This document shows, in pieces, positions 1,915-30,078 of a stretch of 35,926 nucleotides of DNA. The DNA comes from Lachnospiraceae bacterium (GTDB taxonomy: Bacteria; Bacillota; Clostridia; Lachnospirales; Lachnospiraceae), in contig JALERT010000138.1 in assembly GCA_022764445.1 (NCBI GenBank), forward strand, positions 1 to 35,926. Direction: 5' to 3'. The position numbers and the translations under genes were made by a program. How positions within the stretch are numbered: the stretch's first letter is position 1; each line of letters starts with the position of its first letter. Below the pieces are notes generated by a model that did no database searches, was not told the DNA's origin, and was given only the letters and a program-made list of their open reading frames with translations.

Positions 1915-2931
1915 TTATGCAAGCTCTGAGAAGTACTTAATTGTTCTTACCATCTGTGATGTGTAAGAGTTTTCGTTGTCATACCATGAAACAACCTGAA
2001 CTTCGTATAAATCATCAGCTACTTTGTTAACCATTGTCTGAGTAGCATCGAAGAGTGAACCATATCTCATACCAACGATATCTGAAGAAACGATTTCTTC
2101 ATCATTGTAACCGAATGACTCGTTAGCTGCTGCCTTCATAGCTGCATTGATGCCATCAACAGTGATGTCATTACCCTTAACAACTGCTGTTAAGATTGTT
2201 GTAGAACCTGTTGGTGTAGGAACACGCTGAGCAGATCCGATTAACTTACCGTTTAATTCAGGAATAACAAGACCGATAGCCTTAGCTGCACCTGTTGAGT
2301 TAGGAACGATGTTTACAGCTGCTGCACGAGATCTTCTAAGGTCACCCTTTCTCTGAGGACCATCAAGAGTCATCTGATCACCTGTGTAAGCATGGATTGT
2401 TACCATGATACCTGACTGGATTGGTGCAAACTTATTAAGAGCATCAGCCATAGGTGCTAAACAGTTTGTTGTACATGAAGCTGCAGAAATGATTGTATCG
2501 TCAGCCTTTAATGTTTCGTGGTTTGTGTTATAAACGATTGTAGGAAGATCGTTACCAGCTGGAGCTGAGATAACAACTTTACGAGCACCTGCGTTGATAT
2601 GTGCCTGAGCTTTTTCCTTAGATGTATAGAAACCTGAACACTCAAGAACTACGTCAACACCAAGCTCACCCCATGGGCAATTGTTAGCATCTGGGAAAGC
2701 GTAGATTTTGATTTCTTTTCCATCAACTGTGATAGAATCTTCACCAGCTGAAACTGTATCAGCCTTCTCATATTTACCCTGTGATGAATCATACTTTAAA
2801 AGGTGAGCAAGCATCTTAGGGCTTGTTAAATCGTTGATAGCTACTACTTCATAACCTTCTGCACCAAACATCTGTCTGAATGCAAGACGTCCGATACGTC
2901 CAAATCCATTAATTGCAACTTTAACTGCCAT
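1915..2931 (-). CDS. gap: Glyceraldehyde-3-phosphate dehydrogenase, type I
   Basis: 338 aa; [26 protein letters not shown] active site, [15 protein letters not shown]. Confidence 0.97.
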
Positions 2932-3148: not shown

Positions 3149-3364
3149 GTTACAGTTCACACTATATCAGCACAATATAATATTCAAGCTTGCTTGTTGT
3201 ATTATATTGTGCTGATATAGTGGAATAGCCTAACATTTCCTTAATGAATAAAACAAAAGCTGCATAGCAGCGACTGACAGCAGTCGATAACTATACTACT
3301 TTTTAAATATAAAAACTGCTGGCAGGTTTTATGAATGAAGGAAATGTTAGGTGTGAACTGTAAC
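3149..3364 (+). repeat. Copy A of the ITR-bounded multi-hairpin element, full length
   Basis: ITRs GTTACAGTTCACAC (3149-3162) and GTGTGAACTGTAAC (3351-3364). Perfect stem 3160-3182/3200-3222 with loop TTCAAGCTTGCTTGTTG; linker GGAATAG; second stem CCTAACATTTCC.../...GGAAATGTTAGG with inner hairpins GCTGC-ATA-GCAGC and CGACTG-ACAG-CAGTCG. Confidence 0.9.
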
Positions 3365-3383
3365 GTTGGAATAGCCAAACATA

Positions 3384-3905
3384 TTAAGGCTGCCAGTAAA
3401 TAATCTTTCCCTCAGCAAGAGATTCCTGTACCATTATCGTCCTCTGATTTGATGATCCCTTAAATACAAGATTAAGATCCTTTTTGTCAATCATAAATTC
3501 TCCATCAACGAGAACATCAATATATGACATAAACTCTTTTGTTTCATCCCACTCTTCCATCATTCTGCCGATTACGTCTTTTTCAAAATCATACCCTGTA
3601 AAACACCAGATGTCTTTCTCAGGATAAATCTGATCTATTTTCCTAATAAGTGGCAGAAGTCCCTGCTGGTTTGTTTGTTCCAGCGGTTCTCCTCCAAGAA
3701 GTGTAATTCCTTTTATATAATCAGGCTTCATGTATTCTATAATGTCATCAATCACTTCGTCAGTAAACGGCTTTCCAAAATTAAAGTCCCATGTTTCTTT
3801 ATTAAAGCACCCTTCACAATGGTGTGTGCATCCACTAACAAAAAGGGATACACGCACCCCGGGACCATTTGCTACATCACACGTCTTTATTTCTGCATAA
3901 TTCAT
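3384..3905 (-). CDS. nrdG: Anaerobic ribonucleoside-triphosphate reductase activating protein (radical SAM)
   Basis: 173 aa; NGPGVRVSLFVSGCTHHCEGCFNKETWDF (CxxxCxxC variant seen in NrdG), LLGGEPL. Confidence 0.92.
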   Translation of the reverse strand: MNYAEIKTCDVANGPGVRVSLFVSGCTHHCEGCFNKETWDFNFGKPFTDEVIDDIIEYMKPDYIKGITLLGGEPLEQTNQQGLLPLIRKIDQIYPEKDIWCFTGYDFEKDVIGRMMEEWDETKEFMSYIDVLVDGEFMIDKKDLNLVFKGSSNQRTIMVQESLAEGKIIYWQP

Positions 3906-3944: not shown

Positions 3945-3983
3945 GTTACAGTACCTACTCAACATTTTAGTGTGAACTATAAC
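3945..3983 (+). repeat. Copy E: short internally deleted derivative of the ITR element
   Basis: GTTACAGTACC...ACATTTTAGTGTGAACTATAAC, 39 nt, abutting the stop codon (3984-3986) of the sigma-like gene. Confidence 0.6.
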
Positions 3984-13132: not shown

Positions 13133-13321
13133 GTTACAGTTCACGCCTAGCATTTCCTACATTCATAAAACCTGACAATATTTGCAATATTGTCAGGCGC
13201 TGCTTCGCAGCTAATATTTTATTCATGCAGGAAATGTTAGGCTATTCCACTACATTAGTAAAAGATAATATAACAAGCAAGCTTGAATATTATCTTTTAC
13301 TAATGTAGCGTGAACTGTAAC
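13133..13321 (-). repeat. Copy B of the ITR-bounded multi-hairpin element, full length, opposite orientation to A
   Basis: ITRs GTTACAGTTCACGC (13133-13146) and GCGTGAACTGTAAC (13308-13321). Perfect 21-bp stem 13251-13271/13287-13307 with loop AACAAGCAAGCTTGA; linker GGCTATTCC; helices CTGACAATATT/AATATTGTCAG and GCTGC-TTC-GCAGC. Confidence 0.9.
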
Positions 13322-28061: not shown

Positions 28062-28093
28062 GTTACTGTACACACTTATAGTTTTACAGTAAC
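28062..28093 (+). repeat. Copy F: minimal variant-ITR element
   Basis: GTTACTGTACACAC...TACAGTAAC between mnmA and the nifU-like gene. Confidence 0.6.
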
Positions 28094-29945: not shown

Positions 29946-30078
29946 GTTACTGTACAGACGCAAGCTTGACACTTGCTGTCAAGCTATGCGCCAATAATTA
30001 AATTGTGCCTGCTACTATAAATATGCATTTAAAATGGGCTGTAATCGTTACTGTAGCACAATAGGTGTGTACAGTAAC
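29946..30078. repeat. Copy G: variant-ITR element with internal hairpins
   Basis: ITRs GTTACTGTAC (29946-29955)/GTACAGTAAC (30069-30078); internal GCAAGCTTGAC...GTCAAGCTATGC and ATTGTGC(CTG)CTAC...GTAGCACAAT. Confidence 0.7.

Follow-up and report, generated by a model that had tools for sequence, protein, structure and literature searches.

A non-coding element beside nrdG in a Lachnospiraceae genome is a probable IS66/ISBst12-type MITE with a conserved cloverleaf fold

MITEs, which are non-autonomous DNA transposons, are usually viewed as transposon remnants. The described systems closest to the element analyzed here are the IS66/ISBst12 group of single-ORF insertion sequences, the pneumococcal BOX and RUP repeats, and the Clostridiales-1 RNA family (RF01699). 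IS66/ISBst12 members have ends of the form GTWAC...TTCA and duplicate 8 bp of target; the active ISBst12-group member ISDge4 is bounded by GTGACTACTCAGCA/GTAACTGCTCAGCA and by a repeat of 8 bp (PMC12898284). The element has similar ends and the same repeat length, and relatives of its host encode PF03050 transposases bounded by identical ends; distinct from the IS66/ISBst12 group, it has no transposase gene and carries a conserved cloverleaf in place of the coding region. BOX and RUP are, like the element, MITE-like repeats with target duplications and with terminal inverted repeats (TIRs) paired in a tight fold (PMC3049150). They belong to other hosts, have other sequences, and the ends of RUP resemble IS630-Spn1, whereas the arm pattern of the element is conserved across many genera. 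Clostridiales-1 was described in 2010 as a candidate RNA only (PMC2864571). It shares with the element an occurrence in clostridial gut bacteria, a length of approximately 150-200 nt, an outer stem that joins the ends, several arms, the apical loop GCUUGC, and a comparable internal loop (CATAA../..GCGAATG), but its ends are TGATGCC/GGCATCA and no target duplication was found.

The window, that is, the whole stretch of DNA analyzed, comprises 35,926 nucleotides of a Lachnospiraceae bacterium (assembly GCA_022764445.1, contig JALERT010000138.1). The element occupies positions 3149-3364 (216 bases), is non-coding, and sits between gap (1915-2931, minus strand) and nrdG (3384-3905, minus strand), a ribonucleotide-reductase helper gene; gene names were assigned by reading the protein sequences. 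It lies beyond the nrdG stop at a measured distance of 19 nt, in agreement with an earlier estimate of about 20 nt. The original prediction, made from the letters of the window, described an ITR-bounded, multi-branched element without an ORF, and this was borne out: the terminal repeats are an exact 14-bp inverted pair, the z-score of the fold is approximately -14, and within it an ORF scan detected nothing of 60 aa or longer (a 45-aa frame is the longest small ORF that touches it). The parts are listed in Table 1.

Table 1. Parts of the element beside nrdG, its spacer, and the second full-length copy in the window
Feature	Position	Strand	Remark
Left TIR, GTTACAGTTCACAC	3149-3162	+	IS66-like insertion sequences of relatives end in the same or related TIRs
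Arm 1, perfect 23-bp hairpin (3160-3182 / 3200-3222), 17-nt loop	3160-3222	+	
Linker, GGAATAG	3222-3228	+	Third hairpin instead in many other genera
Arm 2 (3229-3254 / 3326-3351), outer stem CCTAACATTTCC/GGAAATGTTAGG	3229-3351	+	
Junction hairpin A, GCTGC-ATA-GCAGC	3259-3271	+	Both-side changes in 5/5 pairs across genera (helix 4)
Junction hairpin B, ACTGACAGC ... GCTGGCAGG	3273-3326	+	Both-side changes in 7/7 pairs across genera (helix 5)
Right TIR, GTGTGAACTGTAAC	3351-3364	+	Exact repeat of left TIR, inverted
19-nt spacer to nrdG stop	3365-3383	+	Contains GTTGGAATAGCCAAACAT
Second full-length copy, 189 bp	13133-13321	-	R1 104.8 bits

Arm 1 was found with the stem and loop originally proposed; it shares 3 nt with the end of the left TIR, and its apical region, CAAGCTTGCTTG, is conserved, with compensatory changes in alignment A1. 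In arm 2, an internal stem (ATAAAAC/GTTTTAT) closes a three-way junction. Two internal hairpins had been proposed here: junction hairpin A stands, with both-side changes in all five pairs, whereas CGACTG-ACAG-CAGTCG is a local option of the window copy only. Junction hairpin B carries an extended AT-rich insert typical of copies in the source genome, and the pairing kept in the family is that of CTGACAGC with GCTGGCAG/GCTGTCAG at the insert's far end. In the spacer, GTTGGAATAGCCAAACAT resembles the linker and the start of arm 2 (direct repeat, 94% over 16 nt) and is possibly a remnant of another copy. Directly upstream of the nrdG start lies a 39-bp remnant-like palindrome, GTTACAGTACC..GTGTGAACTATAAC (3945-3983).

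The minimum free energy of the element is -97 kcal/mol, compared with -41.9 on average for shuffled sequences (z = -14.5; 0 of 200 shuffles as low). The opposite strand gave -93 kcal/mol (z = -14.3), and DNA energy parameters gave z = -15.7. The element is real, and its fold is far beyond chance.

The element is one of many copies. In the window, the TIR pattern gave 19 matches with at most 3 mismatches, versus 2.6 expected. In the source genome (G000), GTWACAGTTCASNC was found 167 times, compared with 2 for its reversed control, and BLAST of the assembly (2.4 Mb, 233 contigs) recovered at least 20 near-complete copies and many partial ones, with two main end types, GTTACAGTTCACAC and GTAACAGTTCAGCC. 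R1, a covariance model built on arm 2, scored 113 bits against 3223-3364, the window copy itself having contributed to the model. R1 matches numbered 43 in the source genome, 90 in Butyribacter intestini TF01-11 (G014), 37 in G008, and 32 in G023. Fourteen of the 28 genomes of the genus had matches; in a set of 397 genomes spread over the Lachnospiraceae, R1 matched 19, from 19 genera, at E <= 1e-4. Further full-length copies, named in the original prediction as a check on it, are present in the source genome and in relatives. Nearly all copies examined in the source genome and B. intestini (80/81) are intergenic. No similar DNA was found in phage and plasmid collections, and no exact core was found in viral contigs.

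Shorter and related forms were also observed. One-arm versions of 85-88 bp with 8-bp duplications occur in two species (L099, L100, L111, L130). A 133-bp element in the window (29946-30078) is bounded by the different but related pair GTTACTGTACAGAC / GTTACTGTACACAC and by an 8-bp duplication in which one position differs; ends resembling these occur at 28062 and 31684. Minimal palindromes, GTAACAGTTCAGCCTGTTAC, are present in the source genome and B. intestini (e.g., L207:215, L208:217, L215:367) and resemble leftovers of the element after deletion or excision.

In B. intestini, an 8-bp repeat (no more than one mismatch) borders 26 of 29 TIR-defined copies, compared with 0 or 1 in offset controls; lengths of 7 and 9 bp fit poorly relative to 8 bp. 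The source-genome copies look older, because the duplication is kept in only 5 of 27 and no intact one flanks the window copy. Among core-bearing elements, 50 of 60 have an 8-bp duplication with at most one mismatch, the ends having been chosen partly by means of the duplication. Diverse genera have it as well. Because 8-bp duplications also flank the one-arm copies and one copy of 49 bp, movement may not require the complete fold; alternatively, such copies may reflect later deletions. With exact TIRs but no transposase gene, many dispersed copies and, in B. intestini, a duplication of fixed length, it is well supported that the element is a full-length copy of a high-copy MITE family.

The same ends bound IS66-like elements in G008 (1835 bp), G015 (1615 bp; 8-bp repeat with one mismatch), G018, G009, and G409. 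They read GTAACAGTTCAGCC in G409 and GTAACAGTTCAG[T/C]C in G008; the G009 element has GTTACTATTCACGG at both ends, identical to the MITE end in G008. Two MITE end types match two insertion-sequence end types exactly. The transposases of these insertion sequences score above the PF03050 cut-off and below the NCBIfam IS66 equivalog cut-off. They retain D, D, and NN[LM]SE motifs; a search of them for a canonical beta-clamp motif was negative. Derivation from the IS66/ISBst12 group is thus indicated by the shared ends and the 8-bp duplication; a matching, mobilizing transposase was found neither in the source genome (88% complete) nor in B. intestini (99%), the two most copy-rich genomes. For old copies, a transposase in the source genome is not required. 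TIR identity and target duplications argue for recognition in trans by an ISBst12-group transposase, by which the element would have transposed.

A pair of inverted repeats 1.6 kb apart in the source genome (G000:C26) was rejected as an insertion sequence, the enclosed ORF reading as a MATE-like transporter, and the canonical high-scoring IS66 elements of the genus have other ends. No enclosed transposase was recognized by eye in other long TIR pairs of the source genome and B. intestini. Separately, the IS66-like element with these ends in G018 (L067, 770-3325) was observed to carry a long compound hairpin inside each end.

In the fold between the TIRs, a terminal stem is followed by arm 1, whose loop is of the GCUUGC type, then by a linker and finally by arm 2, which ends in a three-way junction. 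For 56 two-arm copies, RNAalifold predicted 52 pairs, of which 30 had changed on both sides. An alignment of 65 arm-2 sequences from many genera, fitted to the structure, showed both-side changes in 34 of 36 pairs. Its covariation score was 0.544, compared with 0.169 for shuffles that keep relatedness (strong evidence, though short of a formal R-scape test) and at most 0.094 with partners slid; pairing was 93%, versus 33-47% when slid. Both arms and paired ends appear in the fold of every one of the 26 diverse full elements, and in about half of them the linker forms a third hairpin. Letters in loops and junctions are also conserved (the GCUUGC-type loop, AU.AG..AAAC / GUUUU..G.AU, and the three-way junction). 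The element therefore has one of the features expected of a structured RNA, a conserved secondary structure with compensatory changes, and the cloverleaf has been preserved by such changes across genera.

The changes within pairs differ between strands. On the arm1-to-arm2 strand, with pairs predicted from the opposite strand, Watson-Crick pairs changed to G-U 52 times and to A-C 26 times (p = 0.004); unbiased pairs in the less diverse alignment A1 gave 34 versus 25, which was not significant (p = 0.3). An earlier count (32 versus 11) was discarded because it was biased by the choice of structure. As G-U changes exceed A-C changes, selection of the fold mainly as a single strand, in the arm1-to-arm2 sense, is moderately supported. 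Insertions are likewise oriented: the arm1-to-arm2 strand is opposite the G-rich strand in 107 of 144 (107:37 relative to GC skew; p = 4e-9). With gene context taken from simple ORF calls, the insertions between divergent genes alone show the same skew orientation (29 versus 9; 29/38), and therefore the bias is not only transcriptional. Replication-linked orientation bias is known for other bacterial transposons (PMC5371812), and replication may be its cause here. The arm1-to-arm2 strand is usually antisense to neighboring genes; hence, ordinary read-through would rarely make such RNA.

A role at the DNA level only, in which the arms form a cruciform or an extended end structure for the transposase or a host DNA-binding protein and no RNA is involved, is rather unlikely. 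It would agree with the nearly equal folding of both strands, with a basal stem formed by the TIRs themselves, and with an orientation that tracks replication and not transcription only. However, a cruciform is strand-symmetric, yet G-U exceeds A-C on one strand. Furthermore, the insertion sequences of G008 and G015 have the ends without the arm-2 core; thus, the transposase seems not to need this core.

The original view that the element is not a simple terminator holds, although in the source subfamily the minus strand at 3271-3259 forms a short terminator-like hairpin, GCTGCTATGCAGC, followed by a T-run, TTTTGTTTTA. Full or partial copies occupy the nrdG-gap spacer in G000, G008, G013, and G023, and no copy was found in this spacer in G004 and G022. 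Recurrent insertion is suggested, because the copies share one orientation throughout but differ in end types and are absent from the latter two genomes. A mobile terminator or insulator, whose minus strand would, in the common orientation, set a GC hairpin and T-run right after the stop of the upstream gene, could account for this hairpin, for the frequent location of copies just past a stop codon, for the uniform orientation in the nrdG-gap spacer, and for the excess of the fitting orientation in tandem gene contexts (52 versus 24). Nevertheless, we consider it unlikely: the combination of GC hairpin and T-run is not a family feature, the T-run not being conserved in other genera, which also lack a clear tandem bias (14 versus 11); the orientation bias holds between divergent genes; and the conserved cloverleaf would be superfluous for such a role.

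A selfish MITE with no selected fold, its arms kept by repeat repair and recent copying, would explain why copies within a genome are closely similar, and MITE arms are often palindromic; it is nonetheless quite improbable, since compensatory change recurs in at least 19 genera, short junction hairpins included, and junction and loop letters remain conserved.

The original statement that no described family was recognized was correct for Rfam, no family of which reached its cut-off on the element or on sampled relatives' elements; it is refined in that the element belongs to the known class of MITEs, with ISBst12/IS66-type ends and 8-bp duplications. Clostridiales-1 is the nearest Rfam family, and the idea that the element is a member of it is very improbable: the model aligns full-length to the L239 element (39.9 bits, one subfamily) and also to the L031 element (28 bits), and both families have a cloverleaf and a GCUUGC loop, but every element score is below the 48-bit cut-off, the window copy has no match, the ends differ (TGATGCC versus GTWAC), and no clear target duplication was seen. 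The match that does exceed the cut-off in L239 comes from a different copy in another part of that locus (L239:2552-2704). Because R1 misses genuine Clostridiales-1 copies, membership is not claimed, and Clostridiales-1 is likely a distant relative or a parallel case. Its copies (L049-L058, L239:2552-2704) were observed to have repeat-like ends and a three-arm cloverleaf; Clostridiales-1 may itself be a transposable element. RAGATH-9 (RF03146) aligned full-length but very weakly to arm 2 (20 bits, E 0.14-0.26; cut-off 75.2), a level compatible with chance, and many microRNA matches were at chance level or reflected mere long-hairpin similarity.

We therefore favor, with a probability of roughly 0.6, a non-autonomous IS66-type (ISBst12-group-like) MITE that carries a strand-selected cloverleaf aiding its persistence. 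A DDE transposase of the ISBst12 group would recognize the ends in trans and insert the element with an 8-bp target duplication. Insertion would be coupled to, or filtered by, replication, placing the arm1-to-arm2 strand preferentially on the C-rich strand. The interior is no neutral filler but encodes a cloverleaf, in which the paired TIRs form the basal stem and bear arm 1, in some elements a linker hairpin, and arm 2 with its three-way junction. The arm1-to-arm2 strand would act in folded form, as RNA or, less probably, as single-stranded DNA exposed at replication forks, and the fold may help the element to persist, e.g., by binding a host or transposition factor.

More tentatively, the element may represent a Lachnospiraceae-wide transposable class, comprising the ISBst12-type family and perhaps Clostridiales-1, in which a selected cloverleaf, as RNA or as strand-specific single-stranded DNA, acts in mobility or host tolerance. 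On this view, the interior of a MITE would be a functional structured nucleic acid and not a deletion remnant. An element mobile enough to leave exact target duplications has here retained, through compensatory mutation in many genera, a complex branched fold. It would serve as a model for testing what structured nucleic acid does in transposition, and a described Rfam motif without known function would be linked to the same kind of object. The family, defined by model R1, its ends, and its orientation bias, can now be annotated in gut genomes.
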